Assembly: GCF_025717675.1 (NCBI RefSeq)
Contig: NZ_JAJIRT010000001.1
Span: 496,001-560,000 of the forward strand
Direction of reading: 5' to 3'
DNA: 64,000 nt
Source of the DNA: Paucibacter sp. DJ2R-2
Lineage (GTDB): Bacteria; Pseudomonadota; Gammaproteobacteria; Burkholderiales; Burkholderiaceae_C
Below, in pieces: positions 39,903 to 61,477 of the stretch; position 1 is the stretch's first letter, and each line of letters starts with the position of its first letter. The notes beneath the pieces were generated by a model. The model saw only the letters and a list, made by a program, of their open reading frames with translations. It ran no database searches and was not told the origin of the DNA. Position numbers and translations under genes: made by a program.

Positions 39903-39913
39903 GTTTAATAAAC
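39903..39913. promoter_or_regulatory. LacI-type operator O2 of the lacI operon (GTTTAATAAAC)
   Basis: A perfect palindrome of the form GTTTA-n-TAAAC lies about 60 bp downstream of the predicted start of the lacI operon transcript. The same word recurs at 40040, 61343 (one mismatch) and 61467, and I saw no others in the window. Confidence 0.7.
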
Positions 39914-39977
39914 GCATCATCGTGCGCTTCCAAGGCTCAGGCGAAGGCACTTCACCCGGCTTTGTTCATGGGTGATG

Positions 39978-40006
39978 TTTATATCCAGCGCTTTTTTGAG
40001 CGTCAA
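39978..40006 (-). promoter_or_regulatory. Sigma70-type promoter of the lacI/mannosidase operon
   Basis: On the minus strand TTGACG (40006-40001) is separated by exactly 17 bp from TATAAA (39983-39978). Transcription would start near 39971, giving a leader of about 190 bases before lacI. Operators lie 33 bp upstream of the -35 box and 64 bp downstream of the -10 box. Confidence 0.72.
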
Positions 40007-40039
40007 CCAAAGTGACGGAAGACAGGTGTTTTTAGCGCG

Positions 40040-40050
40040 GTTTACTAAAC
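40040..40050. promoter_or_regulatory. LacI-type operator O1 of the lacI operon (GTTTACTAAAC)
   Basis: A perfect GTTTA-n-TAAAC palindrome lies 33 bp upstream of the -35 box of the lacI promoter. Its centre is 137 bp from O2, close to 13 helical turns, which would allow repression by looping. The rest of the gap from 39779 to 40161 shows no gene. Confidence 0.7.
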
Positions 40051-40161
40051 AAGCGCGAAGAGGAGGGTGCGGCAGGCCATGCGCATGCACGAGCACCTTC
40101 ATTCGCTCGCCGCGACACCGGGTACATTCCGGTAGGCGGTCAACGTACCGGAGAAGCTCGG

Positions 40162-40983
40162 ATGCGCATGAAGTTGCAATGGCCCCCGGGGAAAACATGC
40201 TTGAGGCGGCTTGCACCCCGCCTCATCGCGCTTGTGCTCTCTTGCCTGGCCCCAGGGCTCGCGGCGGCGGCAGCCGATGAGGTGTTGCGAATCTGTGTGG
40301 TCGATGTGCCGCTGCCCCCGTTTTTCAGCGGTGACGAGAACAAGCCTGGTTTGACGGAGAGGCTGCTTCGTGACGCCGCACGAGGCGCCAGCCTCCAGAT
40401 TGAATTCGAGCGCTTACCCCAGCCAAGATGCCGGGCCTTGTTGTTAAAGGGCACGATCGACGGCATGTTTGCTGCCCCGATCTCGGTGCACACCGAATCT
40501 TTCGCCTTTCCCCGACTCGCCGACCGGCAGATTGATCGATCGCGCCGAGTGATGACCATTGAGTACGTCCTGGTACGTCGGGCCGGAACTCACTTCGACT
40601 GGGACGGCAGAGAGTTCTCGCCAGAGGCTCAACCCTTGATCGGTGTGAGGCGCGGTGTGTCCTTGCTGATGGAGCGACTCACCGCGGTCGGCGCCAGAGT
40701 CGATGATGGAGCAGCCTCCTACGAGCAGGCGCTGAACAAGCTCGTAGCCGGACGCACCCATCTAGCGGTCGTACCCCGACATTCGCTGCAGGCCTACCAG
40801 GCCAACTTGAAACCGACGGAGCAGGAGTTGCCTAAGTTGGAAGCGCTCCGAACTTCGCTGCTCACTCAGGACTTCTACATTGCGATACGGCCAGACCTGG
40901 ACCCCATCAGGCGTTCGACGGCTGAGTCTTTTTGGCAAGAAATCGGGCGACTGCGTGATCTTGACGCCTATCGCCTGAAATAG
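40162..40983 (+). CDS. Periplasmic amino-acid-type substrate-binding protein
   Basis: This 273-residue protein has a signal peptide (LIALVLSCLAPGLAAAAA) and a bacterial family 3 solute-binding fold (SBP_bac_3): LRICVVDVPLPPFFSGDENK, GLTERLLRDAARG, DGMFAAPIS, IGVRRGVSLLMERL and QALNKLVAGRTHLAVVP. No permease or ATPase genes are adjacent, so it may feed a distant transporter or act as a sensor input. It is divergent from lacI. Confidence 0.78.
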   Translation: MRMKLQWPPGKTCLRRLAPRLIALVLSCLAPGLAAAAADEVLRICVVDVPLPPFFSGDENKPGLTERLLRDAARGASLQIEFERLPQPRCRALLLKGTIDGMFAAPISVHTESFAFPRLADRQIDRSRRVMTIEYVLVRRAGTHFDWDGREFSPEAQPLIGVRRGVSLLMERLTAVGARVDDGAASYEQALNKLVAGRTHLAVVPRHSLQAYQANLKPTEQELPKLEALRTSLLTQDFYIAIRPDLDPIRRSTAESFWQEIGRLRDLDAYRLK

Positions 40984-41147
40984 CTGATGAGTCCATGGGG
41001 CCCGCCCCCCGACCCGGGCCCTGGACGTCGATTCGCCGGGCCTCCAGGCAGAATCCCGAGGATCGGGGCGAGCTTGGCGTCTGGCCTACCGGGAAGCCCA
41101 CCTTTAATGAATGAATAAATGAACGAGTTAAGAACGGAGCCGCATCC

Positions 41148-41591
41148 ATGGCACTGACGAAAAAGGGCGAGTTCTGGTACGGCACGACCTCGGGCGACAC
41201 CCAAGCCGAGCTGCGCAGCTACAGCGTGGCGAATCGCCACGAGGCCACTCGCTTTGCCGCATCCAAATGCAGCAGTTGCGGCTGCCGGACCTTCGCGCTG
41301 CAGAGCGATGAAGAAGCCGGCGTGGCCATCCGCACCTGCACCGACTGCGGCCAGGAGCACCTGATGGGCGACAGCGCGAACCACCTGGAAGGATCCGCAC
41401 CCGAGACGCACGAGTGCGTGTGCGAGAACGAAGTTTTCGAGCTGATGTCCGGCGTCTCCGTGGTCGAGGGCAGCCACAAGCTGCGCTGGTACTACATCGG
41501 CTGCCACTGCGTGGAATGCAATCTGGTCGGGGTCTTCGCCGACTGGCCGTGCGAAGCGGGCGATGCGGCGGCCTTTCTCGCCAAGGTGTGA
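41148..41591 (+). CDS. Hypothetical protein with several zinc-binding-like cysteine pairs
   Basis: This 147-residue protein contains CSSCGC, CTDCG, CVCE and CHCVEC motifs, which could hold one or two zinc ions in a ribbon fold. A central segment (VAIRTCTDCGQEHLMGDS) resembles rubredoxin-like or zinc-ribbon insertions. No family is recognised. The 164 bp upstream contain an imperfect inverted repeat (40990-41023) without a T-tract. Confidence 0.65.
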   Translation: MALTKKGEFWYGTTSGDTQAELRSYSVANRHEATRFAASKCSSCGCRTFALQSDEEAGVAIRTCTDCGQEHLMGDSANHLEGSAPETHECVCENEVFELMSGVSVVEGSHKLRWYYIGCHCVECNLVGVFADWPCEAGDAAAFLAKV

Positions 41592-41650
41592 AGGCCGGCC
41601 GAAGCCCACTCCGGGTTCAGGCTCGCAAGCTCGGGGTCACTGCAGGCTTA

Positions 41651-41700
41651 GAGTCAGGGCTCAAGCTTCAAGCCCTGGCTTGAGCACGACCTGACCCTCT
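41651..41700. repeat. REP-like palindromic repeat, degenerate copy 1
   Basis: The segment GAGTCAGGGCTCAAG, then arms CAGGGCT (41655-41661) and AGCCCTG (41671-41677), then CCTGACCCT, resembles the GGTCAGG…CCTGACC palindromes at 42066, 47238 and 47320. It lies directly before the AraC remnant. Confidence 0.45.
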
Positions 41701-42055
41701 CGCGCCGGCGCGCCAGCACGTCCGCTCGCCGCCCTGGCTGCTGCAATGCCGAGATGCCTTGCAGGCCGACAGCCTGTACACCGTGTGCGAGCATGGCCTG
41801 TGCAAGCTGATGCTGGAGTTGGGCCTGCATCCCGTCCATCTGGCACGCGTTTTCCGCAGCCACTTCCGCTGCTCACCGGGCAACTTCGCGCGCCAGTACC
41901 GGCTGCAGCGCGCAGCCAGGCTGCTGGCACACGGCCGCCTCAGCCTCAGCGATATGGCGCGGGACTGCGGTTTCTTCGAGCAGCCCCATCTGAGCCGCAG
42001 CTTCCGCGCGCGTTTCGGTATGACGCCTCGTGAGTACAGAGTTCGGGCGGGATGA
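41684..42055 (+). pseudogene. AraC-family C-terminal remnant
   Basis: About 123 codons remain between a stop at 41681 and TGA 42053-42055. They encode only the double HTH of an AraC regulator: PPWLLQCRDALQADSLYTVC, LHPVHLARVFRSHFRCSPGN, YRLQRAARLLAHGRLSLSDM and GMTPREYRVRAG. There is no sensor domain and no good start (TTG 41759 is the first candidate), so it is most simply the end of a decayed gene. A second, shorter copy of the last 12 codons lies at 47271-47309. Confidence 0.7.
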
Positions 42056-42105
42056 AGCTCGGTGAGAGTCAGGTCTTGCCTTCAGACTTAAGGCCTGACC
42101 CCGAG
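42017..42105 (+). repeat. Left direct repeat of the accessory island (AraC end plus REP-like palindrome)
   Basis: This segment holds the codons GMTPREYR to the stop, a short linker, then GTCAGGTCTT (42068-42077) and AAGGCCTGAC (42090-42099), a near-perfect inverted repeat. It aligns over its whole length with 47271-47357, in the same orientation, with many substitutions. The two copies bracket four genes. Confidence 0.6.
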
Positions 42106-42266
42106 CCCTGCTTAAGGCCTAACCCCGAGCCCTGCTCAGCCGGTAGACCCTCAGCCGGATCAGCGAGGCCTTCTCGTTCGCCTGCTGTCCTGAAGCTTGT
42201 GGATGGCAGCTTCCTGGGCCGTCGATAACGTCGCGGTCCCTGTCACCCCAAACATTGGAGAACGAA

Positions 42267-42875
42267 ATGGCGAAAGTCCTCTATATCGATGATATTCACC
42301 TGGCAACTACGCGCAGTCGTCCGCCTCGACTTCTCGTGACAGTACAAGGTCGAGTCACGAGCACTGGCTGGTCAGGCGGGCGTCTTGAGCCTTGGGTGTA
42401 CATCGTGCCGCCTGGCGATGGCCTGCAAGACCTCGATTTCGTCGCAACACCTCCATCGGGACCGGCCGGTCAAGCATTGATGCCGATTACCGGCGGGACC
42501 AGCTTTTGGTTGCCCGAATGGTGCAAGGGCGTGCGCGTGCATGCCAGCGCCAACTGCATGGAGAGCTTGGTTCCAGGACGTGAGCCTCTCCATCTTCTTG
42601 GCGCAACTGAAGAAGGAGATCCCGGCGATAGCTGGCCTTGGCAAGATCCCGACTCTTGGCCTTGGCTTATCGCACCGGAACACGCAGAAACGTTGCAGCG
42701 CTTAGCCTCTACAGGATCTGCGGCAACTGCTGAGTGCAAGGTATCAGACCTGATCGGCCGGCCGGCACGGATCATTCGAGATGGTGATCCGACCGACATG
42801 ATGTATTTGCCTGAGAGGGTGACGGTGGTGCTCGCACGAGACAAGAGCGTGATCGTTGATGTTCGGTTCGGATAG
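42267..42875 (+). CDS. Hypothetical protein with a C-terminal I78 inhibitor-like segment
   Basis: This is a 202-residue protein. The last 45 residues (SDLIGRPARIIRDGDPTDMM, then YLPERVTVVLARDKSVIVDV) follow the pattern of the I78 peptidase inhibitor family (core G-x-P-x-R-V-I-x-P-G, D-Y-x-P-x-R-L-x-V). The usual disulfide cysteines are only partly present. The N-terminal 150 residues are unfamiliar and include a Trp/Asp-rich DSWPWQDPDSWPWL stretch. There is no signal peptide. GGAG precedes ATG 42267. Confidence 0.6.
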   Translation: MAKVLYIDDIHLATTRSRPPRLLVTVQGRVTSTGWSGGRLEPWVYIVPPGDGLQDLDFVATPPSGPAGQALMPITGGTSFWLPEWCKGVRVHASANCMESLVPGREPLHLLGATEEGDPGDSWPWQDPDSWPWLIAPEHAETLQRLASTGSAATAECKVSDLIGRPARIIRDGDPTDMMYLPERVTVVLARDKSVIVDVRFG

Positions 42876-43140
42876 CCAGACGGACGGCACAGCGCTCCTT
42901 GGGGCACGTTGCGGTAACGAACGCCGACGCAACAGTGGCGCGCTGCTTCATCAAATCTGCTGACCTCTGTCCCGATAGTTTCATCAAGCAGCGACTGCCC
43001 GCACCTAGACTGCCCTCAAACACAGAGGTAGCTCTCGTTCATCCCATCTTCAAACGCCCACACGGCGGGTGACGAGACAGCGAACGGACAAGGCCAAGTT
43101 CTCGCTCTTGCAAGCGCCCCTCTGCTTCAAGGGACAAATC

Positions 43141-45750: not shown

Positions 45751-45760
45751 GGAGGCTCCC

Positions 45761-46189
45761 GTGAACAACATTGATTCCGGCGTGGTGCGCCGTCGAGACT
45801 CTGGCGTGTGGGAGATCGTGGACGGGGCTGAAACAGTGCTGGCCCGATACAGCCACGCGGCGTTTCCGGACATCGTCGCGGGTTCTGATGTCTATTTCGT
45901 GCGCAATCCGGCAGACGGGAGGGCAGCCATCAACGTCCAACCGGTGATGCTGGTCGACGAAAGCGTGGAGGCGGCCGCACCGACCAACGGCTACAACAGC
46001 TCGGCTGAGGCCAGGCTACGCAGCTTCATCATGGATCGATTGCTGGCTGCGACAAGGCTGGCCGGCGACCCAAGGAAAGCCATCCTCCGTGAGTTAGCTG
46101 AGACCATGGACGAGATCAAGTCGGCTGCCGAGAAATCGCGCTCGAAGAAGGTCACCCTCGTACTGCTGACGTCCCTGAGTATTCCCTGA
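45761..46189 (+). CDS. Hypothetical protein co-transcribed with the large lipoprotein
   Basis: This 142-residue protein starts at a GTG with GAGGAGG upstream. The N-terminal 60 residues are beta-rich and the C-terminal third is a charged helix (ILRELAETMDEIKSAAEKSR). No motif is recognised. Its placement 11 bp after the lipoprotein gene suggests a partner protein. Confidence 0.6.
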   Translation: MNNIDSGVVRRRDSGVWEIVDGAETVLARYSHAAFPDIVAGSDVYFVRNPADGRAAINVQPVMLVDESVEAAAPTNGYNSSAEARLRSFIMDRLLAATRLAGDPRKAILRELAETMDEIKSAAEKSRSKKVTLVLLTSLSIP

Positions 46190-46304
46190 TCGCCTGAGAA
46201 GCTTCCTCTCGGAGCGACGGCGGCATTACTGGTAACGCGGTGCGCCAGCCAGATCGTTTTGTACTGGCCTGCTTTGTTCGCCGCCGCTGGCGGTCATCAA
46301 ACAC

Positions 46305-47270: not shown

Positions 47271-47357
47271 GGGATGACGCCGCGCGAGTACCGAGCTTGG
47301 GCCAACTGAGGATTGACGAGGGTCAGGTCATGCTTTCAGATTCAAGGCCTGACCTCA
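47271..47357 (+). repeat. Right direct repeat of the accessory island
   Basis: Thirteen codons including the stop (GMTPREYRAWAN) end at 47309 and are followed by GGTCAGGTCATG…AAGGCCTGACC. The order and most bases match 42017-42105. Nothing upstream in frame looks like the rest of an AraC gene, so this is a second broken end. Confidence 0.6.
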
Positions 47358-49230: not shown

Positions 49231-51039
49231 TCACTCCCACACCAACACCCCCGACACATTCCATGAACTGAAACTCGTCCCCTCGCGCGGCCCTTGCGGA
49301 ATCCGCACCGTCATGCGGTGCCGCCCGGCTTTCAAGTTACCGAGGTCGATGTAGATCGGGTTGGTTGCCGTTCCGGGGCACCAGTTGGAGCGGCTGATGT
49401 CGGAGGAGGACAGGCCGTCGTTGAAGTTGCCGGAGGCGGGGTTGAAGAGGCGGAAGGCGCCGCAGTCCTGGCGCCAGGGGACGAAGGAGAACACCTCTTT
49501 GCCGTTGAGAAGGATGGTGTTTTTCTTGGGCACGAATTCGTCGCCGTTGGTCCAGCCGCCGTGGCCGGTGCTGATGTAGCGCAGGCGGGCGTTTTTGAGC
49601 GGGCGGTCGAGGGTGAAATCCACCTCCAGGCCCTTGGGCTTGTCGAACATGGTGGCGTAGTCCTGCTCGGCCATCTCCATCACATTGGTGGTGTTGAACA
49701 GCGGGATCAGGCGCGGAGCTGAAGAAGAAGAAGCCGAAGAAGCCGCTGCACCCGTGCTCGGGCTCACCGGCTTGGAGAACATGGCGGTGGCGGCGTCGCT
49801 GGGGTGGATGGTGAGGTTGAGATCCAGCTTGTGGCCGCCCTTGTCGTAGTTGCCGATGAACACGCCCAGGGCCAGTTGCTGGCCCGAGAGGCGCTGGGCC
49901 AGATCGGTGATGTCCATGCGGTAGGGCGCGGCCTCGTGCCAGGTCTTGCCCTTGAGCTGCAGGTGGTTGTAGTGCTTGACGCCAAAGGGCGTGAAGAAAC
50001 GCATCAGCTCGATCAGGGGCGCATAGTCCTCGGTGGCGACCACGCCGCGGTAGGTCCGGTCATTGCCGTTCTGATAGGCCGGCAAGGCGGCCACGCCGCG
50101 CTGCAGGCCGTCCAGGAAGGTGCGCGTGGCCTTCTTTCCCTTCTCTGGATCCTTCGTGCCCAGCGGGATCACAAAGACCGAGCCGGTGCGGTCATACGCA
50201 TCGCCGTTCGAGCGGGCGAGAAGATCCACAAACACCTGGCTGCCCGGCGCGATCTCGGGCAGCTGCACGGTCTTGAGCACCACTGTACCGTTTGCGTAAC
50301 GGGTCACGCCCTCGCGTGGCTCGCGGTCCTCGCCCGAGAAGTTGACGATCTGGTCCTGGAACACCGGAATGGTGGTGAAGCGGCTGCGCCAGACGCGATC
50401 TTTGTAGCTGAGGCCGTCGAGCAGCGGCGCGGCCTCAACCTTCCCACCCTGCGCCATCTCGGCCAGATCCAGGCCCTGGAAGGGCTCGATCTGCGTGGCG
50501 CTGATGACGAAGTTGCCGTTGCGCACCAGCTCCAGCACCAGGCCCAGCTGGTGGCCCAGCACGGTGGGCGCGCCGGCCGCGGGCAGCTCGGTCGTGTACC
50601 AGAGCTCGATGGTGTTGGAGTTCACCACCGTCTTGGCCTTTTTGCAGCGGTAGCCGAGGATGGTGCGCGTCTCCTCGCTGAACTCGTAGCTTTGCTTGGG
50701 CAGCGATTCGCGGTCCAGGGTGGCGATGCCCTCCCCTGGGCTCAGGCGCGCCAGCTGCAGCAGCTCTTGCGCGGCGGGCTTGATGAACTGCTGCTCGAAG
50801 GGAAAGCCGGCCTTGCCGGCCAGGATGGCCTCGGAGCTGATCAAGGCCTCGCCCTTGGCGGCGAACACCCAGATCGGGTCCTGGCCTTCGACCGGCTTGC
50901 CGTTGTAGCTGCGCTGGTAGCGCAGCTTCCAACCCTCGGTGGGCGCGGCCAGCACCAGGCTGGGCGCCAGGGCTGCCAGTGCGGCCAGCAGAACGCCGGC
51001 CAGGCGGGCTTTGTTGAAGATCAGGCGTGTCGTGCGCAT
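49231..51039 (-). CDS. PNGase F-like peptide-N-glycosidase with an extra N-terminal domain
   Basis: This 602-residue exported protein has a signal peptide (AGVLLAALAALAPSLVLAA). Residues 30-210 resemble the GLPGLI-type beta domain (GWKLRYQRSYNGKPVEGQDP, ILGYRCKKAKTVVNSNTIEL). Residues 230-602 match the two PNGase F jelly-rolls: SNGDAYDRTGSVFV, RYISTGHGGWTNGDEFV, SFVPWRQDC and SRSNWCPGTATNPIYIDL. PNGase F hydrolyses the amide bond between Asn and GlcNAc and so frees N-glycans from glycoprotein. It is last in the receptor operon. ATG 51039 has AGGA five bases upstream. Confidence 0.82.
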   Translation of the reverse strand: MRTTRLIFNKARLAGVLLAALAALAPSLVLAAPTEGWKLRYQRSYNGKPVEGQDPIWVFAAKGEALISSEAILAGKAGFPFEQQFIKPAAQELLQLARLSPGEGIATLDRESLPKQSYEFSEETRTILGYRCKKAKTVVNSNTIELWYTTELPAAGAPTVLGHQLGLVLELVRNGNFVISATQIEPFQGLDLAEMAQGGKVEAAPLLDGLSYKDRVWRSRFTTIPVFQDQIVNFSGEDREPREGVTRYANGTVVLKTVQLPEIAPGSQVFVDLLARSNGDAYDRTGSVFVIPLGTKDPEKGKKATRTFLDGLQRGVAALPAYQNGNDRTYRGVVATEDYAPLIELMRFFTPFGVKHYNHLQLKGKTWHEAAPYRMDITDLAQRLSGQQLALGVFIGNYDKGGHKLDLNLTIHPSDAATAMFSKPVSPSTGAAASSASSSSAPRLIPLFNTTNVMEMAEQDYATMFDKPKGLEVDFTLDRPLKNARLRYISTGHGGWTNGDEFVPKKNTILLNGKEVFSFVPWRQDCGAFRLFNPASGNFNDGLSSSDISRSNWCPGTATNPIYIDLGNLKAGRHRMTVRIPQGPREGTSFSSWNVSGVLVWE

Positions 51040-51091
51040 CGTTGTCCTCATTCTTCTCGTCTTGTTGCTCTTGGCAATCTGCCCGCTCGCC

Positions 51092-53581
51092 TCAGTGCGC
51101 CAGCCGGATCTGGTGCAAGCCCTCGTCCGCCCCAGCGGGCAACTCCAGCAGCAGCCGGCCCGCCTCAGCATCCAGCGTCTGAGCCGGCAATGGCAGTCCG
51201 TCGAACGCCCAGGTACGCGTAGGCACTGCGCCCCCCAAGCCCAGAATCTCCAGCCGCGCCAGCCGCTGAAATCCGGCGTTCGGGGGCAGCTCCAGCGTCA
51301 GCCCCTGGCCATCCTGGCGGACGCCGATGCGGCGCGACGCACCCTGGCGATAGCCATAGCCCTCACCGGCATCTTGAAACACCTCGCTGTGGCCAGGGCC
51401 GCCCCAGGCCACGGTCAGAGTCAGCGGCGCCGCGCGCATCTCGCCGGTATGCTGCAGCGGCGCCTGCGTGGGCACGGCGGCGCCCACGCGGACGAACAGG
51501 GGCAGGCGGTCCAGCGGCGCGGCCACGGTGGCCTCGCTGCCGCCCTCAAAGCGGCGGCCGGTCCACCAGTCCAGCCAGGCTTCGCCGGCGGGGAAGTAGA
51601 CGCTGCGCTGGCGCTCGCCCTCGCGCAGCACCGGCGCCACCAGCAGGTCGCGGCCGAGCAGGAACTGGTCGTCCACCAGGCTGGCGCGCACATCGCGCGG
51701 GAAGTTGAACCACAGCGGCCGCAGCGGCGGCAAGCCGCTGCGCTCGTTCTCCTCAAACAAGCTGTAGAGGTAGGGCAGCAGGCGGTAGCGCAGCTCGATG
51801 GTGGCGCGGTTGATGCGCTCGAACTCGGGGCCGAAAGCCCAGGGCTCGCGCGGCGCCGAGACATCGTTGGAATGCGTACGGAAGAAGGGCGTGAGCACGG
51901 CCGCCTGCAGCCAGCGGCTGTGCAGCTCGGCGCTGGGGCTGCCCATGAAGCCGCCGACATCGGCGCCTACAAAAGGCACGCCCGAGATGGACAGATTGCT
52001 CAGCATGGGGATGGTGAGCGCCAGATGCGTCCAGGTGGGCGAGTTGTCGCCCGTCCAGACCGCCGCATAGCGCTGCACACCGGCCGCGCCCGCGCGCGTC
52101 AGCACCATGGGCCGCTGCTCGGGGCGCAGGCGGCGCAGGCCCTCGAAGCTGGCGCGGGCCATCTGCAGGCCGAACACATTGTGATAACGCGCATGATCAC
52201 CGGGCCGGCCGTCGCCGGCATGGCGAGCGTCCAGCGGCAGAGTCTTTTGCGGGCCGAGCGAGATCTCGGGTTGCTTGAAGCCATCGGGCGCGAACACGCC
52301 CGGCTCGTTCATATCGTTCCAGAAGCCATCGACGCCCAGGTCCAGCGGCGCGGCGTAGAGCTGGCCGAACCAATCGCGTGCGGCAGGCGAGGTGAAATCC
52401 GGGAAGGCGCAGATGCCGGGCCAGACCTTGGCGTGCAGCTCTTGGCCATCGGCGCCGCGCATGAACACGCCGGCCTCGCGGCCGCTGCGGTAGATGGCAA
52501 AGCCTTCGTCGCGCTTGATGCCGGGGTCGACGATGGTGACGGCGCGGAAGCCCTGCGCATGCAGCTGGCCCAGCATCTCGCGCGGCTGCGGGAAGGTGCC
52601 GGGGTTCCAGGTGAAGACGCGGAAGCCGTCCATGTGGTCGATGTCGAGGTAGAGCACATCGGCCGGGATCTGGCGCTGGCGGAACTCGCGCGCCACGCTC
52701 AGAACTTCATCCTGCGTTTTGTAGGACCAACGCGACTGCTGGTAGCCCAGGGCCCAAAGCGGCGGCAGCGGGCCGCGGCCGGTGAGCGCGGTGTAGTCCT
52801 GCAGCACCCGGGCCGGGCTGCGATCCGGGCCGCCGGTGAAGACGAAGTAATCCAGCTCGCCACGCGCCGAGCCGAAGCGCCAGCGCTGCGGCTCGGTCTT
52901 GCCCATGTCGAACCAGCTGCGGCTGCTGTTGTTGAGGAAGACGCCGTGGCTCAAGCCCTGGTGCAGGGCGATGAAGAAAGGGATGGCCTGGTAAGACGGG
53001 TCGTGGCCGGGCGCGTAATCGGGCACGTCGGCGTTCCACATCACCAGATGCTGCTGGTGGCGCGAGAGCGGCAGGGCTTTTTCGCCAAAGCCGTAGTAGA
53101 GCTCGTAGTCGTCGCGCCGCTTGCTGGCCTCCACACTGCCCTCTTGGGCATCAAACATCGTCGGTCGTGCCGGATCATCGGCGCTGATCAGGCGGCCGGC
53201 GCTGTCGAACACGCTCAGCTGCAGCTCAGGGGAGCGACGGATCTGCACCCGCGTGCCGCTGGCCGAGCGCAGCTCCAGCAATTGCGGGCCGATGCGGCGC
53301 AGCTCCGCCTTGGCTTGCGACGGCGACGCGCTCAGCGCATAGCTGGCCGTGTCGGGCTCGAAAGGCGCGCCGCTGGGGCTGATGCGCACGCGCAGCACCT
53401 CGGGCGTGACGAAGCTGATGCGGGCCCGGGCGCCACGCGCCAAGCGCAGGTCCACGCCGTCCTCGCGCGGGCTGATCTGCGTGACCGGGCCGAGGCTTCG
53501 TTGCGTCGCCTCGGCAGGCAGCGGTGCGAGCACGGCGAACAGCAATGCCGTTGTGCACAGGGGATTCCACAAGCTCATCAC
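51092..53581 (-). CDS. GH31 family alpha-glucosidase/alpha-xylosidase
   Basis: This is an 829-residue exported enzyme. The (beta/alpha)8 barrel has LYLDIDHMDGFRVFTWNPGT, VDGFWNDMNEPGVF with the nucleophile Asp423, RTHSNDVSAPREPW with the acid/base region, and a C-terminal beta domain. GH31 members remove alpha-glucose or alpha-xylose. In an N-glycan locus, removal of the glucose caps of immature high-mannose glycans is the likely job. Its start overlaps the GH2 stop by ATGA; a second ATG follows directly. Confidence 0.9.
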   Translation of the reverse strand: MMSLWNPLCTTALLFAVLAPLPAEATQRSLGPVTQISPREDGVDLRLARGARARISFVTPEVLRVRISPSGAPFEPDTASYALSASPSQAKAELRRIGPQLLELRSASGTRVQIRRSPELQLSVFDSAGRLISADDPARPTMFDAQEGSVEASKRRDDYELYYGFGEKALPLSRHQQHLVMWNADVPDYAPGHDPSYQAIPFFIALHQGLSHGVFLNNSSRSWFDMGKTEPQRWRFGSARGELDYFVFTGGPDRSPARVLQDYTALTGRGPLPPLWALGYQQSRWSYKTQDEVLSVAREFRQRQIPADVLYLDIDHMDGFRVFTWNPGTFPQPREMLGQLHAQGFRAVTIVDPGIKRDEGFAIYRSGREAGVFMRGADGQELHAKVWPGICAFPDFTSPAARDWFGQLYAAPLDLGVDGFWNDMNEPGVFAPDGFKQPEISLGPQKTLPLDARHAGDGRPGDHARYHNVFGLQMARASFEGLRRLRPEQRPMVLTRAGAAGVQRYAAVWTGDNSPTWTHLALTIPMLSNLSISGVPFVGADVGGFMGSPSAELHSRWLQAAVLTPFFRTHSNDVSAPREPWAFGPEFERINRATIELRYRLLPYLYSLFEENERSGLPPLRPLWFNFPRDVRASLVDDQFLLGRDLLVAPVLREGERQRSVYFPAGEAWLDWWTGRRFEGGSEATVAAPLDRLPLFVRVGAAVPTQAPLQHTGEMRAAPLTLTVAWGGPGHSEVFQDAGEGYGYRQGASRRIGVRQDGQGLTLELPPNAGFQRLARLEILGLGGAVPTRTWAFDGLPLPAQTLDAEAGRLLLELPAGADEGLHQIRLAH

Positions 53582-56235
53582 AGCGCCGCACTCCCGAGCA
53601 CACGCAGGCGCAGGGCGCGCTGCAAGTCTTCCACATTAGCTTTGCTGTTGAGTTTGAGGCGCAGCGACTCGCCCGGCAGCAGAGTCAAAGCGTTGTCAGC
53701 CACATCCACGTCCAAGCCCTCGAACTCAATCCAGACGCCACGCGCGAGACTGCGCGCTTGCACATGCAGCTGCAGCTCTCCGCCCACGCGCTCGACCTGG
53801 GCCTGCAGGGCTGAGGCTTGTGGCCAGGCCAGGTCTTTGGCGGGCTTGAAATACACCACGCTGCGCGAAGGCGGTTCGCCCTCGACCTGCAGCTCAAACA
53901 CGGCCACGGCGGAGGCCGGGTCGGCATCGCCGAGCAAATCGGCATCGGCATAACGAGTGAGCAGCTGGGACGAGAGCGGCGCCAGGGTCAGCGCCTGGCG
54001 CTCCTCGAGCAGGGTGCGGCCTTGCAGCGTCATCACGCGCAGGCTCAGCTTGCCGCGCCTGGGTTCCGTGCGGTCGTTGATGACATGCAGCCGCGTCTGG
54101 CCAGAGGCCTCACGGAGCGCTGCCACAGTCACCGGCGCGAAGAAGCGCCGAGCCTGGAAATGCAGCGCCTTCCAGCGGCCGACATGGTCGATGCTGGACC
54201 AGGACGCGCCGGGCCAGACATCGTTGAGCTGCCAGTACAGCGAGCCCATGGTGAAGGGCCGGCTGGCGCGATGGTGCAGGGCGGCGAGCTGGATGCCCTC
54301 GGCCTGCATCAGCTGGCTGCGGTAGATGAAGTCGCCAAAATCGCGCGGCTCGCCGAACTCCTCGCGGATGTATTTCACCAGCCGCTCATTGCCCTGGCCG
54401 GCCATGAATTTCTGGTGCGCGGTGATCAGCGGCGCGCTGATGCCCTGCGCACTGCGCGGCGCGAACGCATCCACCGTGGCCTGCACCGGCCAGGCCTGCA
54501 GGCCGTACTCGGACATGAAGCGCGGTGTGATCTCCAGGTACTTGCTGACCGGGTGGGCCGGGTTGCCCCAGACCTCCCAGTAGTGCATATCGCCGCTGGC
54601 GGGCGTGTTGGCCACCTCGGCCAGGTCGTCACCGGGCGAGCTGGACCAGTAGGCGATGCCACCGCCCTCCTCGGCCACCACCTGGCGCAGATCGCGGCCG
54701 AAGAGCTGCACATAGCCCTGCCAGACGCGCTCGGCCAGGGCCGGGTCGGCGGCCTTCATGTCACGGCCATGGCCCCAGTATTTCCAGGCGATCTCCTGCT
54801 CGTTGTTGCCGCACCAAAGCACCAGGCTGGGGTGGTGGCGCAGGCGCTGCACCTGCTCGCGCGCCTCGACCGCCACATTGGCGCGGAAGGCCGGGTCGTA
54901 GGCCGGCTGCATGCCGCCGCCAAACATGAAGTCCTGCCAGATCATCAGGCCCAGCTCATCGGCCAGGTCGAAGAAGGCCTCGCTCTCGTAGTAGCCGCCG
55001 CCCCAGCTGCGGATCATATTCATGTTGGCATCACGCGCGGACTGCATCACCCGGCGCAGCTGCACAGCACTGACGCGCGACTGGAACATATCGAAAGGAA
55101 TGGAATTGGCACCCTTGGCGAAGACAGGGATGCCGTTGACCTCGAAGTGGAAGCCGCGGCCTTGCACGTCGGGCTCGCGCTTCAAGGCCACGCTGCGCAG
55201 GCCGGTGCGCTGGCTCAGCGCATCGATGCGCCGGCCCGCTTGCAAAACCTCCAACTCGTAGCGGTACAAGGCCTGCTCGCCATAGCCGTTAGGGAACCAG
55301 CGCCGCGGTTGCTCGACCTGCAGGGGCAGTTCGATTTTCTGCAGGCCGGCCTCTGTGGCCTGGCCCCGCCGCTCGGCGGCCAGCTGGCGGCGGCCATCGG
55401 GGGCGGTCTGCCAAAGACGCAGCTGATAGCCCCCCGCACGCGCCAGCTCCAGCGTGGCGATGGCGCGCAAGCGGGCCCGCTCGGCCGTGACTTCATCCTG
55501 CAGCAGCTGCAGCGATTCGATGCGCAGGCCGCTCCAGCTCTGCAGGGTCACCGGCTGACTGATGCCGGCGGTGACGTAGCGCGGGCCCCAGTCCCAGCCG
55601 TAGTGGTAGCCAGGCTTGCGGACGAAGTTGCCCGTCATGGCATCGGGCGGCTCGTCGCCATAAGGCGAGGGGTAGTTGCCGGCCAGCTTGACCGGCATGG
55701 CCTGCACCTGAGGGAGGAGTTTGGCGATGGGCGAATGGAAGACGATGCGCAGCTCATTGCCAGACGCGCGCAGCAAGCCCTGCTGCACCGGCACGCGCCA
55801 GCGGCGGAAGGCGTTGTCGGCACGGAGCAAGGTGCGGCCGTTGAGCTGCACCTCGGCGTACGTGTCCAGGCCTTCGAAGACCAGCTCCTGGCGTGCCTGC
55901 GCCAGCTGAGCGCGTGGCACATCAAAGCGCGTGCGGTACTCCCAGTCGGCCAGTCCTATCCATTGCAGCGCAGCCTCGGGCGCGCCGACATATGGATCGG
56001 GGATCAGCTGGGCGGCCAGCAGGTCGGTGTGCACCGTGCCGGGCACCTGGGCCGGGCGCCAGGCCGTGGCTGCGGCATGGGCGGCAGCCTGGTTGCTGGC
56101 GGGGCTGAGGCGGAACTGCCAGGCTTGGGTGAGGGGCAGCAGGTCGGCGGCTGAGGCGGGCATGGCGAGCAAGAGAGGCATGAGCAAGGCAGCCATGAGC
56201 AAGGCCGGGCGACGAAGCAAGGTCCGAAACTTCAT
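53578..56235 (-). CDS. GH2 family beta-mannosidase
   Basis: This is an 885-residue exported enzyme with a signal peptide (LLMAALLMPLLLAMPASAA). It has the GH2 sugar-binding domain (VPGTVHTDLLAAQLIPDPYV), a barrel with GWDWGPRYVTAGI, MNMIRSWGGGYYESEAFFDL, DELGLMIWQDFMFGGGMQPA and the acid/base WCGNNEQEIAW, and a C-terminal beta domain. The WDWGPR and WCGNNE wording is typical of beta-mannosidases rather than beta-galactosidases. It should cut the core Man-beta-1,4-GlcNAc. Its stop overlaps the GH31 start and its own start overlaps the halogenase stop by 4 bases. Confidence 0.9.
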   Translation of the reverse strand: MKFRTLLRRPALLMAALLMPLLLAMPASAADLLPLTQAWQFRLSPASNQAAAHAAATAWRPAQVPGTVHTDLLAAQLIPDPYVGAPEAALQWIGLADWEYRTRFDVPRAQLAQARQELVFEGLDTYAEVQLNGRTLLRADNAFRRWRVPVQQGLLRASGNELRIVFHSPIAKLLPQVQAMPVKLAGNYPSPYGDEPPDAMTGNFVRKPGYHYGWDWGPRYVTAGISQPVTLQSWSGLRIESLQLLQDEVTAERARLRAIATLELARAGGYQLRLWQTAPDGRRQLAAERRGQATEAGLQKIELPLQVEQPRRWFPNGYGEQALYRYELEVLQAGRRIDALSQRTGLRSVALKREPDVQGRGFHFEVNGIPVFAKGANSIPFDMFQSRVSAVQLRRVMQSARDANMNMIRSWGGGYYESEAFFDLADELGLMIWQDFMFGGGMQPAYDPAFRANVAVEAREQVQRLRHHPSLVLWCGNNEQEIAWKYWGHGRDMKAADPALAERVWQGYVQLFGRDLRQVVAEEGGGIAYWSSSPGDDLAEVANTPASGDMHYWEVWGNPAHPVSKYLEITPRFMSEYGLQAWPVQATVDAFAPRSAQGISAPLITAHQKFMAGQGNERLVKYIREEFGEPRDFGDFIYRSQLMQAEGIQLAALHHRASRPFTMGSLYWQLNDVWPGASWSSIDHVGRWKALHFQARRFFAPVTVAALREASGQTRLHVINDRTEPRRGKLSLRVMTLQGRTLLEERQALTLAPLSSQLLTRYADADLLGDADPASAVAVFELQVEGEPPSRSVVYFKPAKDLAWPQASALQAQVERVGGELQLHVQARSLARGVWIEFEGLDVDVADNALTLLPGESLRLKLNSKANVEDLQRALRLRVLGSAAL

Positions 56236-57791
56236 GCGGCCCTCCAGTAACGCTCAATCCACTGCTGGTGGGTGGGCATGACGGCCACGGCGTCGCTCAG
56301 GATGTGGCGCGTGCCTTCCACGAAAGCGTGCAGGCGGTCTTCGGGCATGTCGTCGACGATGGGGTGGTAGCTGCGCGGAAGGATGCGCTGGCCCAGCATC
56401 ACTTGCACCCAGCTGGGCAGGGCGAAGAAATCCTCGCCGTGGCGGAAATAGCGGCCGTCGGCGCGGAACAGGTCCATGGCCTCGCGCAGGCTGTCAGGCA
56501 CGGACATGGTGCGGCAGTCGTTCCAGAAATCGGAATCGTCGCGCTCGGTCGCGTGGTAGTGCAGGATCAAGAAGTCGCGCACGCGCTCGTACTCGAACGC
56601 GGTCTCGCGGTTGAAGCGCTCGGCCAGCTGCGGGTTGAACTCACGACCCGGGAACAGGCTGAGCAAGCGGCTGAGGCCCGATTGCACGAGGTAGATGCTG
56701 GTGGATTCCAGCGGCTCCAGGAATCCGCTGGCCAGGCCCAGGGCGATCACGTTCTTGTTCCAGACCTGCTTGCGCATGCCGGTGGTGAAGCGCAGCAGGC
56801 GCGGGTCGGCCAGGGGCTTGCCGTCGAGATTCGCCATCAGGGTGGCGGCGGCCTGGTCCTCGCTGAGGTGCTGGCTGGAGAAGACATAGCCGTTGCCGAT
56901 GCGGTGCTGCAGCGGGATGCGCCATTGCCAGCCGGCGGCCTGGGCGGTTGCGCGGGTGTATGGGGTGATCGGATTGGCGCCTTCGCAAGGCACGGCCAGG
57001 GCGCGATCGCAAGGCAGCCAGTGTGACCAGTCGGTGTAGCCGGTCTTCAGGGTCTCTTCGATCAGCAGGCCGCGAAAGCCCGAGCAGTCGATGAAGAGAT
57101 CACCCTCGACGCGCTCGCCGCTTTCCAGCTGCACGGCCTCGATGAAGCCGTCGTCAGTGCGCTGCAGGGCGCGCACGATCTTGCCTTCGATGCGCTGCAC
57201 GCCGCGGCGTTCGGAGATCTCGCGCAGAAAGCGCGCGTAGAGGCTGGCGTCGAAATGGTAGGCATACGCGATATCGGCCAGCGGCGAATCCGGCGCCGCC
57301 GAAGGGTCGCCGGGGATGAACTTGCCCTGCGGTGCCATCAAGGTCTGCAGCGAGTAGTCGCCAATCGGCCCGGCCCGGCCGGCCAGGAATTGCTTGAGCC
57401 AGAACTGGTGAAAGGGCAGCGGCCCGCGCGAGCGGCCGATGACGCCGAAGCCGTGGGTGTAGCGGTCGCCGATGCGGGCCCAGTCGCGGAACTCGATGCC
57501 GAGCTTGACGGTGCCCTGGGTGCGGCGCACGAACTCCGTCTCGTCGATGCCCAGCATCTGGCCGTTGAACATGCGGATGTGCGGCACGCTGGCCTCACCG
57601 ACGCCGACGATGCCGATCTCCTCGGACTCGATCAAGCGCACCGAGGCCTGCCGGCCCAGGTAGGTGGCCAGGGTGACTGCGGCCATCCAGCCGGCGCTGC
57701 CGCCCCCGACCACCACCACGCGGCGGATGCGCGCGTCCTGGGCTGGATTGCTGATGCTGAGGCCCTTGTCGAGACTGCTGCTTTCACTCAT
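56232..57791 (-). CDS. Tryptophan-halogenase-like flavoprotein of the glycan locus
   Basis: This 519-residue protein has the FAD motif GGGSAGW (29-35), the lysine of the halogenase active site in TVKLGIEFRDW (Lys96) and the WxWxIP motif (Trp288, Trp290). Homologues are repeatedly found beside TonB-dependent receptors in carbohydrate loci of Caulobacter, Xanthomonas and relatives, where halogenation has rarely been shown. ATG 57791 has AGGAGGG upstream. It lies between the receptor and GH2 with a 4-base overlap on the GH2 side. Confidence 0.85.
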   Translation of the reverse strand: MSESSSLDKGLSISNPAQDARIRRVVVVGGGSAGWMAAVTLATYLGRQASVRLIESEEIGIVGVGEASVPHIRMFNGQMLGIDETEFVRRTQGTVKLGIEFRDWARIGDRYTHGFGVIGRSRGPLPFHQFWLKQFLAGRAGPIGDYSLQTLMAPQGKFIPGDPSAAPDSPLADIAYAYHFDASLYARFLREISERRGVQRIEGKIVRALQRTDDGFIEAVQLESGERVEGDLFIDCSGFRGLLIEETLKTGYTDWSHWLPCDRALAVPCEGANPITPYTRATAQAAGWQWRIPLQHRIGNGYVFSSQHLSEDQAAATLMANLDGKPLADPRLLRFTTGMRKQVWNKNVIALGLASGFLEPLESTSIYLVQSGLSRLLSLFPGREFNPQLAERFNRETAFEYERVRDFLILHYHATERDDSDFWNDCRTMSVPDSLREAMDLFRADGRYFRHGEDFFALPSWVQVMLGQRILPRSYHPIVDDMPEDRLHAFVEGTRHILSDAVAVMPTHQQWIERYWRAA

Positions 57792-57850
57792 GCTTGAAAA
57801 CCCTCCTGCCGGGTCAGGGGCGCGGCACACGCACACACAAACACACAAAG

Positions 57851-57947: not shown

Positions 57948-60900
57948 TCAGTACTTGTAGGTTAGGCCCACATAGGCAATGCGCCCGGCGTAGCTGTTGC
58001 CATAGAAGCGATCCTGCGTGTCATTGCCCAGGTGCGAGCGTGCTTCCTGCTTGGTCAGGTTGAGCACCGAGGCCGTGAGGCTCAGCGCCTTGCTGACGTT
58101 GTAGGCGGCATTCAGGTCGATCTGGCTGTAGGGGTCGGAGTAGACATTCAAGCCGTTCATCAGACCGCCCACCACCACACCGCGGCGGTTGTAAGAGGCG
58201 CGCAGCAAGTACTGGTCGTTGCCGTAGAACACGGTCAGATTGCCCTGGTTCTTGGCGCTGCCGACCAGAGGCGACTTGCCGATCACCTTGCCGTCGGCCA
58301 AGGTGATCTCGGCCTGGTTGGTCTTGTTGTAGGTGTAGTTGAACTGGAAACCCAGGCCGAAGTCCAGGGTGTGCTGGCCGTACAGCTCGATGCCTTGCGA
58401 GACGGCGTCGCGGCCGCCGGCGCTGGTGGCGTAGTTCTGCACGGTGACGCTGGTGCCGCCCACGTCCATCACCATATCGCGCACCACGGGCACCGAGAAG
58501 TTGCTGACGTTCTTGCGGAACAAGCCCGCGCCCAGCACCGAGCCGCGGTGGAAGTACCACTCCAGGCCCAGGTCGTACTGCGTGGCCTTGTAGGGCTCCA
58601 GGCTCTTGTTGCTGCCCTGGCCGAACCAGCCCACCTTGTCGGCGCCACCGATCAGGCGACGGTCGTTGACGTATTCCTGGCTGTAAGACTTGAGGCCACC
58701 GGGCGAGGCGATGTCGCCGTAGCTCGGGCGGGCAATCACCTTGGATGCAGCGGCGCGCAGCAGCAGGTTCTTGCTCAGGTCATAGGCCAGGTTGAGGCTG
58801 GGCAGCACATCGGTGTAGCTGCGGTCCAGCGAGCTGACCACGAAGGACGAGACATGGCCGGTGGCCGGGTTGCTGTTGCTGTCCGGCAGCTTGGTGAAGC
58901 CGCTGACGCAGCCCGAGCCGGCCGGGGCGCCGGTGGCCGGCAGGCCGCCCGGCAAGCAGGGCGCGGGGTTGCCGTCCGGGCCGTCGAAGAAGTAGTCGTT
59001 GTAGTAATCGACCTGGTCCGTCGAATCGGCATGCTGCTTGGTGCGCACCAGGCGCAGGCCCACATTGCCGCGCAGGCGGTCGGCGCGGATGTTTGCCTGC
59101 AGGTAGGCGGCCGTGATTTTCTCGCCCACGTTGTAGACGAAGTTGTTCTCCTGGCGGGTCTGCATTGCACCGTAGGTCTTGTTCAGGTGCGCGATATAGG
59201 CCGGGTAGTCGATGGCCGGGAAGGCGCTGGCGCTGAGGCCGCCGGCCAGATTGCCGAGCGAGTCACCGTAGAGGAAGGACGGCAGGAACTTGGACGCCGT
59301 GGCGTCGCAGCCGTTCTGGAAGCGCTTGTCGTAGTTGGCGGGGTCCGCACCCTGGCAGACCCAGTAGTTGTTGCCGGTGCTGCGGCGGGTGCCGCCATCG
59401 CGGGTCTTGAGGCCGAACTGCAGGGAGTCGAGCCACTCGCTGTCTTGCTGCCAGGTGAAATCGGCCTGGGCGTATTTCTGCTCGGTGCCGTTCTTGGTCC
59501 AGGACGAGGAGGTGGAGCCGAGGTCGATCTCGCCAATGCCCTTCTGCAGATTGGCCATCAGCTCGGGCGCAAAAGTCATGGTCGGCGTGCCGACCAAGCT
59601 CCAGGCACTGGCGGTGTTGCCCATGGTCCAGCTGCCGTTGGCGTTCTGCATGCGCGGCTTGATGGGCATGGAGAACTGCATGTCCGGGCCGCCCTTGGCC
59701 CAGGTACGGCCGAGCTTGAAGCTGGCTTCGATGCTGTCGCCCTTCCACTCGGCGGTGAGGTCGGCGGTCTGCGACAAGGCCTTCTCGCGGTTGTAGCTGC
59801 CGGTGATCTGCGGCGTGGGCACGGTGCAATCGTCCGGGCCCCAGCCACCAGGCTTCTGGCCGCCGGCAGCTGCGGCGCCTTCGCTGCAGTAATAGGTCTT
59901 TCCGGGGTGGGCGCTGTACTGGGCGCCAGTGACGATGGTGCCGCTGGGATCGAAGGTCAGGCGGTCCAGCAGGCGGCCGGTGGGCCAGTTGCCGTCACCG
60001 TCGTAACGGGCCAGGTTCCACTCGGGCACCTTGAGGATATTGGTCTGCGAGTTCTGCGACAGATTGAAGCGGAAGTAGTTGCCGGTCAGGGTCAGCCGGT
60101 CGATGGGCTTGGCTTGCAGGGTCAGCTGCCCGCCTTGGCGCTCACGCTCTTCGCTCTTCACGTTGAGGTTGACCGAGGTCGGCATCATGAAGTTCTTGTA
60201 GTACTTGCCGCTCTGGTCGTAGAAGCCGGACTGGCCCCACCAGTAGCTGCTCATGCCCGAGGGCTTGCCATTGACATCGGTGGCGGGGTTGGTCTTGTAG
60301 TTGTCGCCGTACCACTGCCAGTTTTCGGTGCTGGCGCCCATGGTTCGGGTGGTGCGCTTTTGCTGCGTCACACCCACCAGCACGCCGAAGCGCTTGGCCT
60401 CGTCATGCCAGGCGTACTGGCCGGAGAACTGGCCATCGATCTTGTTCGTGGTGTCGGCCGAGGTGCCCTCGGCAGTGAAGAAGCCGCTGTTGGACTTCAT
60501 GTCCAGCGGGCGGCGTGTGTGCAGGATCACCGTGCCGCCGACGCCGCCTTCATCGAGGCGCGCTTCCGGCGACTTGAACAGCTCGGCGCTGGACAGCATG
60601 TTCGCCGGCATCAGCATGTAGTTGAAGGAACGGGTCGGGTCGCCGTTGGACTCGGCCGTGGCGATGTAGTTGCCGTTCAGCTGGGTCAGGGTCAGCTCGG
60701 ACGAGAGCCCGCGCACGCTGACGTTCTTGCCCTCGCCGCCGCTGCGGTCCACCACCACGCCGGGCACGCGCTGCAGCGCGTCGGCCACGTTCTTGTCGGG
60801 GAACTTGCCCACGTCTTCGGCATTGACCACTTCGACGATGGCATTGGCATTGCGCTTCTGGTCGAGGCTCTTCTCGATCGAGCTGCGATAGCCGGTGACG

Positions 60901-61082
60901 ACCACCGTGTCCATCTGCGCCGGTTCGGCCTTCTTGTCGGCGGGCTTGTCGGCCACAGCGGCCTGCGCGTGGGCGCTGCCGCCCAAGGCCAACAAAGCGA
61001 TGCCGACCGCCGTGGCAATCGGCGTCTTGGCGGTGAAGGCCCAGCGACGCTGTCGTGATTCGTGCGTGTTCTTCGATGTCAT
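57948..61082 (-). CDS. TonB-dependent receptor for glycan uptake
   Basis: This 1044-residue outer-membrane receptor has a signal peptide (AVGIALLALGGSAHAQA), a TonB box-like MDTVVVTGYRSS, and the plug domain (EDVGKFPDKNVADALQRVPG, VSVRGLSSELTLTQLNG). Its long barrel ends in an aromatic residue (YVGLTYKY). The EDVGKFPDKNVADALQRVPG wording is typical of the carbohydrate-type receptors of Caulobacter, Xanthomonas and Burkholderiales. It should import released N-glycans. ATG 61082 has AGGAG upstream. It heads the halogenase-GH2-GH31-PNGase operon. Confidence 0.92.
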   Translation of the reverse strand: MTSKNTHESRQRRWAFTAKTPIATAVGIALLALGGSAHAQAAVADKPADKKAEPAQMDTVVVTGYRSSIEKSLDQKRNANAIVEVVNAEDVGKFPDKNVADALQRVPGVVVDRSGGEGKNVSVRGLSSELTLTQLNGNYIATAESNGDPTRSFNYMLMPANMLSSAELFKSPEARLDEGGVGGTVILHTRRPLDMKSNSGFFTAEGTSADTTNKIDGQFSGQYAWHDEAKRFGVLVGVTQQKRTTRTMGASTENWQWYGDNYKTNPATDVNGKPSGMSSYWWGQSGFYDQSGKYYKNFMMPTSVNLNVKSEERERQGGQLTLQAKPIDRLTLTGNYFRFNLSQNSQTNILKVPEWNLARYDGDGNWPTGRLLDRLTFDPSGTIVTGAQYSAHPGKTYYCSEGAAAAGGQKPGGWGPDDCTVPTPQITGSYNREKALSQTADLTAEWKGDSIEASFKLGRTWAKGGPDMQFSMPIKPRMQNANGSWTMGNTASAWSLVGTPTMTFAPELMANLQKGIGEIDLGSTSSSWTKNGTEQKYAQADFTWQQDSEWLDSLQFGLKTRDGGTRRSTGNNYWVCQGADPANYDKRFQNGCDATASKFLPSFLYGDSLGNLAGGLSASAFPAIDYPAYIAHLNKTYGAMQTRQENNFVYNVGEKITAAYLQANIRADRLRGNVGLRLVRTKQHADSTDQVDYYNDYFFDGPDGNPAPCLPGGLPATGAPAGSGCVSGFTKLPDSNSNPATGHVSSFVVSSLDRSYTDVLPSLNLAYDLSKNLLLRAAASKVIARPSYGDIASPGGLKSYSQEYVNDRRLIGGADKVGWFGQGSNKSLEPYKATQYDLGLEWYFHRGSVLGAGLFRKNVSNFSVPVVRDMVMDVGGTSVTVQNYATSAGGRDAVSQGIELYGQHTLDFGLGFQFNYTYNKTNQAEITLADGKVIGKSPLVGSAKNQGNLTVFYGNDQYLLRASYNRRGVVVGGLMNGLNVYSDPYSQIDLNAAYNVSKALSLTASVLNLTKQEARSHLGNDTQDRFYGNSYAGRIAYVGLTYKY

Positions 61083-61342
61083 GGTCTGTCTCCTGATCTT
61101 GCCCAAGGGCGGGCTTTGTTTTGCGGAAGCCGGGCCTCGATCGCCTGTGTTCCAGACGGCATGCCCCGCTACCCATTTCGAATTGGCTCGGACGCCCTGG
61201 CGTTCCTTGACTTGAACGCGTCGGACCCGCCACCGTGAAGCTCGATGCAAGGCTCAGCGCCAAAACCCGATCCGGGTTCGCAGGTTGATGTCGGGTCCTT
61301 GTCTCAGGCCGCGTCGTGCGCAGTTTCGGGAGAACCCTGAGG

Positions 61343-61353
61343 ATTTACTAAAC
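61343..61353. promoter_or_regulatory. LacI-type operator O2 of the receptor operon (ATTTACTAAAC)
   Basis: This site matches GTTTAnTAAAC at 10 of 11 positions and lies about 45 bp downstream of the predicted receptor transcript start, the same side as O2 of the lacI operon. Confidence 0.62.
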
Positions 61354-61404
61354 GACTAAAAGACCACCTGCTTTTCGCTGGGTACTGCATTCCACCCAGG
61401 TAAA

Positions 61405-61433
61405 TTTATACAAAGGAAGCCAGCACGGCTCAA
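61405..61433 (-). promoter_or_regulatory. Sigma70-type promoter of the receptor operon
   Basis: On the minus strand TTGAGC (61433-61428) lies 17 bp from TATAAA (61410-61405). Transcription would start near 61398. The spacing and the 33-bp distance to the upstream operator equal those of the lacI promoter. Confidence 0.65.
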
Positions 61434-61466
61434 CAAACTTTCAATGTTTGGATTCAGTTTAGTTTT

Positions 61467-61477
61467 GTTTAGTAAAC
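61467..61477. promoter_or_regulatory. LacI-type operator O1 of the receptor operon (GTTTAGTAAAC)
   Basis: A perfect palindrome lies 33 bp upstream of the receptor -35 box, with a half-like CAGTTTAG next to it. It may also control the divergent ROK kinase gene 120 bp away. Confidence 0.68.

Follow-up and report, generated by a model that had tools for sequence, protein, structure and literature searches.

How does a LacI-family protein control a promoter from operators that leave the core promoter free? The question is raised by two separated gene blocks in a 64,000-nucleotide stretch of the Paucibacter sp. DJ2R-2 genome (contig NZ_JAJIRT010000001.1, positions 496,001 to 560,000; the whole stretch is called the window and is numbered from its first base). 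One block is headed by a lacI gene and the other by the gene of a TonB-dependent receptor, and each predicted promoter lies between two short palindromes (Table 1). A sequence-only reading took the palindromes for four exact copies of GTTTAnTAAAC, which would tie both blocks into one regulon and would suit DNA looping by a tetrameric LacI protein. The LacI family supplies the textbook examples of repressors, and engineered switches are often built from its members. The arrangement appears unusual for this family: many related species have a short operator with a third half-site at a near-fixed distance from their promoters.

The palindromes and the lacI gene

Three of the palindromes (39903, 40040 and 61467) are indeed exact, and are the only exact copies in the window; the fourth, at 61343, is ATTTACTAAAC and carries one mismatch. 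Many relatives have the same asymmetric variant, GTTTAGTAAAT on the minus strand (61343-61353), at the receptor promoter, so the mismatch looks kept. No exact copy appeared in 100 shuffles, and the four sites at one mismatch or fewer compare with 0.07 expected. A scan of the 5,795,653-base assembly, which had been proposed as a check, found three exact places, all at this locus, and nine at one mismatch or fewer, four of them here, while the word read backwards as a control gave 30 such places and one exact. Chance occurrence is rejected on the shuffles, the expected counts and the genome scan.

Do the sites go with this lacI? Across 18 genomes of the genus, all five with a lacI ortholog (90-100% identity) have two or three exact sites each, and 12 of the 13 without an ortholog have none (Fisher p = 7e-4). 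The lone congeneric match without lacI (G008) was set aside: it sits inside a reading frame and has no tail of the kind described below. In four congeners lacI is preceded by a pair of sites at 136-137 bp from each other, with a mismatch in one of the eight sites. A wider scan of named genomes (Massilia, Duganella, Undibacterium, Roseateles and others) kept the best 80 of 295 relatives, at 57-93% identity, with Paucibacter oligotrophus (L053) among the closest. Among these best 80, 75 carry a site at one mismatch or fewer in the 380 bp that precede lacI, and in 73 such a site has a tail; the five without a site are L061, L067, L095, L096 and L127, with near misses in L061, L095 and L096. None of 22 loci with LacI paralogs has a site at that threshold. 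The homologs were found by peptide patterns, and the set leans to short-hinge proteins because one of these patterns lies in the hinge; a separate genome search that yielded 19 loci is free of this bias. Thirteen homologous loci read one by one comprise clear composites (L157, L158), variants (L159, L162, L163, L015, L016), two palindromes with no exact tail (L164), two members of a family termed f32 (L135, L165) and three loci in which lacI stands immediately behind another reading frame (L160, L161, L017). The element also precedes a further promoter in L055, in front of a gene for a CBM9-like protein. The proposal of one regulon under this LacI is thus well supported by comparative genomics, through co-occurrence in the genus and the 75 of 80 homologous loci, and the protein encoded at 38759-39778 very probably binds these sites.

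Four loci (L080, L081, L083 and L102) contain, about 9.5 kb beyond lacI and behind a transporter gene, a second copy of lacI at 60-61% identity. This copy has its own composite plus a downstream site, the pair being 113 bp apart. Separately, the composite word occurs 12 times on three contigs of genome G181 (L136, L144, L147-L156), often as opposed copies 48 bp apart; these look like a repeated element, and no lacI ortholog was found in G181.

A third half-site in register with the predicted -35 box

The window promoters are predictions by consensus. Their 17-bp spacers and the 33 bp from the end of the upstream palindrome to the -35 box are as the sequence-only reading gave them for both promoters. 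The two 33-bp stretches agree in 10 of 33 bases, and distance is therefore kept more than sequence. The same reading had the upstream palindrome right and missed that it belongs to a composite, with a third half-site, CTAAA, on the promoter side. With the direct repeat CTAAA at 9-11 bp, the palindrome forms a set in which a single half-site recurs in both inverted and direct orientation at variable spacing. A loose palindrome-plus-tail pattern, TTTANTAAN{5,8}TAAA, has three matches in the genome, all here: both upstream sites and the 61343 site, the last on the plus strand with a closer tail. A role for the 61343 site in a promoter of the divergent kinase was rejected: the site has a plus-strand tail but no TTG at 26-41 bp. 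Word searches of the literature found nothing on a palindrome-plus-tail element; string searches with GTTTAGTAAAC and GTTTACTAAAC gave no match on bacterial gene regulation by title, although motif logos escape such searches.

In the relatives the tail is strongly polar. Sites within the first 40 or the last 60 bases of a locus were left out; among the 192 counted, TAAA at an offset of 4-6 lies in the direction of lacI transcription in 109 and in the opposite direction in 6, some of these 6 facing leftward genes. The tail also goes with the promoter: it is present in 92 of 98 palindrome readings that have TTGA at +31 to +36, against 23 of 285 without TTGA. A recount of polarity with TTGA in range and slightly wider edges gave 90 tails on the same side only, 2 on both, 2 on the opposite side only and 3 without a tail. 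Among 40 sites, 97% have a C directly in front of TAAA, at a base to which no selection had been applied.

How tightly is the distance held? The non-redundant set comprises 66 tailed sites (below 70% identity, tail offset 3-7). Fifty-eight of them have a -35 box at 32, 33, 34, 35 or 36 bp from the palindrome (7, 19, 24, 6 and 2 sites), and in these 58 the distance from the start of TAAA to the -35 box is 28, 29 or 30 bp (27, 25 and 6). The variance is 0.44 for the tail-to--35 distance and 0.89 for the palindrome-to--35 distance, a value as low being reached in none of 20,000 permutations. A reading-frame test that passed in 58 of 58 is weak, long frames being common in such DNA, and is not used as support.

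The downstream operator

The downstream site usually has no tail, and is found at one mismatch or fewer in 36 of the 58 non-redundant promoters; the other 22 have the upstream element only. For lacI promoters the distances between operator centres are 77, 81, 91, 100, 101, 115, 122, 134-139, 142, 148 and 150 bp, where the 150-bp value was added to the list by hand from L058/L084 and the 91-bp value (L073) was dropped with its row. Pairs at 67-78 bp in L104, L108, L109 and L112 were left uncounted, as the upstream partner is a second composite or lies near one. In L104, L108 and L112 a divergent transporter gene and lacI each have a composite facing their own promoter, the two being 67-69 bp apart. 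In each of the 15 loci found to have two adjoining receptor-side sites at one mismatch or fewer, these lie 122-125 bp from each other.

A fixed helical phase of the two operators was sought as a conserved feature and was not found for lacI promoters: R at 10.5 bp is 0.06 for these and 0.20 for all promoters, with best-period p values of 0.41 and 0.068, and no helical period is clear. Upstream-only promoters have weaker -10 boxes, with a mean of 4.0 versus 4.8 of 6 matches (Mann-Whitney p = 5e-5, among related sequences). The downstream site looks like an addition that strengthens control.

A shortened hinge and no tetramerisation tail

The window protein has the LacI helix-turn-helix and the periplasmic-binding-like core (PF00356, E 1.1e-10; PF13377, E 1.1e-34). 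A hinge of normal length is typical of the LacI/GalR family, though not strictly defining, and CytR departs from it. The alignment of the window protein to PurR shows a four-residue gap in the hinge. The GY motif and the first core strand are separated by 12 residues in the window protein and in 80 of 80 homologs, and by 16 in 22 of 22 canonical paralogs; 12 were also counted in 16 of the 19 loci of the separate search (44-93% identity, some from the same genomes). The subfamily has about five extra residues just after the first core strand. The remaining three of the 19 loci all belong to family f32 (which includes L165, L167 and L168) and have 11 hinge residues and a different operator layout.

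For structure modelling, 28 homologs out of the 80 and 12 paralog loci out of the 22 were taken, and the models agree with the counts. The AlphaFold2 model of the window protein is helical in the hinge only at residues 59-61 (mean predicted local distance difference test score, pLDDT, 88.9, lower in the hinge), and that of a canonical control paralog has a helix at 52-59 (mean pLDDT 87.9, with only 53 for residues 51-60). The hinge leucine, L62, is kept (invariant in 32), and the four residues are absent where the alanine would lie. Hinge alanine and leucine have been tied to the central CG of the operators, with rare exceptions for which that source cites work on CytR (PMC2978694), and in a survey of 1303 regulators 1251 have palindromes of even length, 16-22 nt (PMC4052901). 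The operator here is odd in length and has no central CG, and the typical hinge of normal length with its leucine at a central CG was not found in the window protein. We infer that the short hinge may be linked to the short operator.

The C-terminus bears on looping. The alignment with E. coli LacI ends at residue 335 of 339, which corresponds to LacI residue 328 of 360; LacI 329-360 are unmatched, and the window protein has no residues to match the C-terminal tetramerisation helix. The operator centre distances of 137 and 124 bp in the sequence-only reading are right, and equal 13.05 and 11.81 turns at 10.5 bp. Its proposal of looping by a tetrameric LacI fares less well: without a LacI-type tetramerisation tail, and with a downstream operator that is at 77-150 bp with no clear period at lacI promoters and absent from 22 of 58 promoters, tetrameric looping is unsupported as a general mechanism.

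Mechanism and alternatives

How, then, would the regulator act? Neither operator covers the predicted core promoter, and simple blocking is therefore unlikely. The upstream composite, in register with the -35 box, is constant across species and its extra half-site is the one nearest the promoter, which is the geometry of a protein working directly on RNA polymerase. We lean, if only modestly, towards promoter-locked action from the upstream element as the main mechanism. The LacI protein would serve as the local regulator of an N-glycan/mannoside utilisation regulon, binding the upstream composite GTTTAnTAAAn-N(3-5)-CTAAA at each target promoter. If transcription starts 7 bp after the -10 box, the tail (from TAAA), held 28-30 bp before the -35 box, would stand at about -62 and the palindrome at about -74. 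From there the bound protein may affect a nearby RNA polymerase, probably in the region of its alpha C-terminal domains, and keep the promoter off until a mannose-derived ligand appears. The second operator, usually tail-less and at about +50 to +63 in the window, would strengthen control of strong promoters by a roadblock or an optional loop. The net effect is probably repression, which is favoured because of the biology of local sugar regulators.

Several observations weigh against a promoter-locked element read by this protein. Three hundred genomes of the order were sampled: 15 of the 19 with lacI (E<=1e-60) lack the exact composite word, and of the nine genomes with the word four have lacI and five do not; the backwards control word also occurs singly in some of the 300. 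In L160, L161 and L017, as in L166 (G341, outside the order), lacI lies directly behind another reading frame and has no upstream site, and in L163 the composite stands just before the lacI start, with no room for the register. Eight of the 66 tailed sites have no -35 box in register (seven have no TTG at 26-41 bp, and that of L073 is at 38). Within family f32, the tailed site of L167 faces away from lacI with no -35 box at 33 bp, L165 has no site at one mismatch or fewer and the site of L168 is untailed. Moreover, the promoters are predictions by consensus, the -35 box being sought as the best TTG at 26-41 bp, and the loci are related, so that the counts overstate independence.

Looping between dimers, as by GalR, may still occur at the two window promoters. 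In the E. coli gal operon, the operators OE (-60.5) and OI (+53.5) are 113 bp apart and bind one GalR dimer each; repression is described as best at 103, 113, 123 and 133 bp and as lifted by half-turn changes, and of the two gal promoters one is repressed and the other activated when GalR occupies only OE (PMC4693257). Dimers on the upstream and downstream operators could likewise join here and shut off the promoter within a loop of 124 or 137 bp. The likeness is real, as two operators for a LacI-family dimer flank the promoter, one well upstream and one downstream (PMC4693257). The window distances are near whole turns, the receptor-side distance stays at 122-125 bp in 15 of 15 loci and the pair at the second lacI copy has the 113 bp of gal. 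However, a 5-bp change lifts repression in gal (PMC4693257), whereas the lacI distances here range from 77 to 150 bp with no clear phase, and a partner operator is often absent. Unlike gal, with its 16-bp operators, this system has an 11-bp core, a one-sided third half-site, variable inter-operator distances at lacI and upstream-only promoters. The loop also leaves the one-sided tail and its near-fixed distance to the -35 box unexplained, and we consider it improbable as the main mechanism.

A class-I-type activator site would account for these last two features, as a tail near -62, polarity and a fixed register are typical of activators; the LacI protein would then activate, as Cra/FruR does at some genes, with the downstream site as a brake. 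The weaker -10 boxes of upstream-only promoters fit this explanation. However, LacI proteins of local sugar operons mostly repress, and the window promoters have good -10 boxes and a downstream site, so that activation seems slightly less probable again than the gal-like loop. Could another protein read the palindrome or the tail? An 11-bp odd palindrome with no central CG is atypical for the family (PMC4052901), but the shortened hinge gives a reason for an atypical operator, the tail is the same half-site word and the sites track lacI both in the genus and upstream of its homologs; a different reader is very unlikely. Promoter-locked action by this LacI remains our preference, and a stronger form of it is offered only tentatively, as rather doubtful: the short-hinge subfamily may have lost one turn of the hinge helix together with the reading of a central CG, and may read half-sites singly, three of them forming a polar, -35-locked element from which the protein would contact RNA polymerase directly, not by occlusion or looping, and would activate or repress according to the presence of the downstream operator.

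The locus and its genes

The gene families together (PNGase, GH92/GH47, beta-mannosidase, TonB receptor, mannose isomerase, kinase and transporter) read as an N-glycan/mannoside utilisation system, with a predicted route from uptake of the N-glycan or mannoside through trimming to mannose, fructose and fructose-6-phosphate. Gene maps of the relatives have similar gene sets behind the sites. Beyond the two blocks, a ROK kinase gene and then CutC follow on the opposite strand.

Provided that promoter and start codon are predicted correctly, a hand count gives the receptor mRNA a leader of about 316 nt (61082-61398). It has no Rfam match, and an RNA element was rejected, as no Rfam family attains its gathering score anywhere in the window. 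A stretch of about 9 kb (40060-49218) separates lacI from the PNGase F gene and includes an AbiU/AIPR-like gene at 47385-49043; it is absent from L053, where the two genes adjoin. In L052 the stretch between them is shorter, and about 1.1 kb is common with that of the window.

Table 1. Predicted features of the two gene blocks and their promoters (window positions).
Feature	Position	Strand	Basis
MFS (major facilitator superfamily) sugar transporter, GluP subfamily, FucP-like	30887..32284	-	family match
GH92 alpha-mannosidase family	32241..35090	-	domain match
GH47 alpha-mannosidase family	35087..36862	-	domain match
PfkB sugar kinase, fructokinase-like; domain from about residue 150	36511..37869	-	below equivalog cut-off
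AGE-family epimerase, mannose isomerase-like	37442..38683	-	profile match below equivalog cut-off
LacI/GalR-family regulator, 339 aa, hinge-shortened subfamily	38759..39778	-	Pfam LacI and Peripla_BP_3; hinge count
Downstream simple operator of lacI promoter, GTTTAATAAAC	39903..39913	.	exact match; paired site in 4 congeners
Predicted -10 TATAAA of lacI	39978..39983	-	consensus; same in 5 congeneric promoters
Predicted -35 TTGACG of lacI	40001..40006	-	consensus; congeneric promoters
Tail half-site CTAAA, upstream composite (lacI)	40031..40035	-	pattern scan, relatives
Upstream palindrome (lacI), GTTTAGTAAAC, 33 bp from -35	40040..40050	-	exact match; congeners
PNGase F-like N-glycanase	49231..51171	-	domain match
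GH31 glycosidase	51092..53581	-	domain match
GH2 beta-mannosidase-like	53578..56235	-	domain match
Tryptophan-halogenase-like flavoprotein	56232..57848	-	family match
TonB-dependent receptor, TonB-Xanth-Caul type; putative start at the Met before the signal peptide	57948..61082	-	family match
Downstream operator of receptor promoter; minus strand GTTTAGTAAAT	61343..61353	.	one mismatch or fewer; relatives
Predicted -10 TATAAA of TonB-dependent receptor	61405..61410	-	consensus
Predicted -35 TTGAGC of TonB-dependent receptor	61428..61433	-	consensus
Tail half-site CTAAA, upstream composite (receptor)	61458..61462	-	pattern scan
Upstream palindrome (receptor), GTTTACTAAAC, 33 bp from -35	61467..61477	-	exact match

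Known systems and significance

Besides gal, three systems invite comparison. E. coli CytR is a LacI-family protein whose half-sites may be arranged as inverted or as direct repeats and are variably spaced (PMC3454398); unlike CytR, which has a flexible linker and works with CRP, the present protein has a linker shortened by four residues and a strong motif. The cre-var sites of CcpA in Clostridium are likewise a non-canonical LacI-family operator, with TGTAAA/TTTACA halves (PMC5263246). However, CcpA is a Gram-positive global regulator, its spacer is variable, and the abstract on it mentions no promoter-locked tail. The ManR regulons of RegPrecise, in five groups, also combine a LacI-family regulator with mannose and mannoside genes (PMC4052901); the RegPrecise survey of the family searched for palindromes of 14-24 bp (PMC4052901).

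For the study of N-glycan use in Burkholderiales the locus offers a ready-made regulon and about 58 distinct natural promoters, and family f32, with its 11-residue hinge and other operator layout, is a natural test of the link between hinge and operator. If the proposed mechanism is true, the clade would show how hinge length sets the form of the operator, and how a looping-type repressor turns into a regulator that contacts the promoter.

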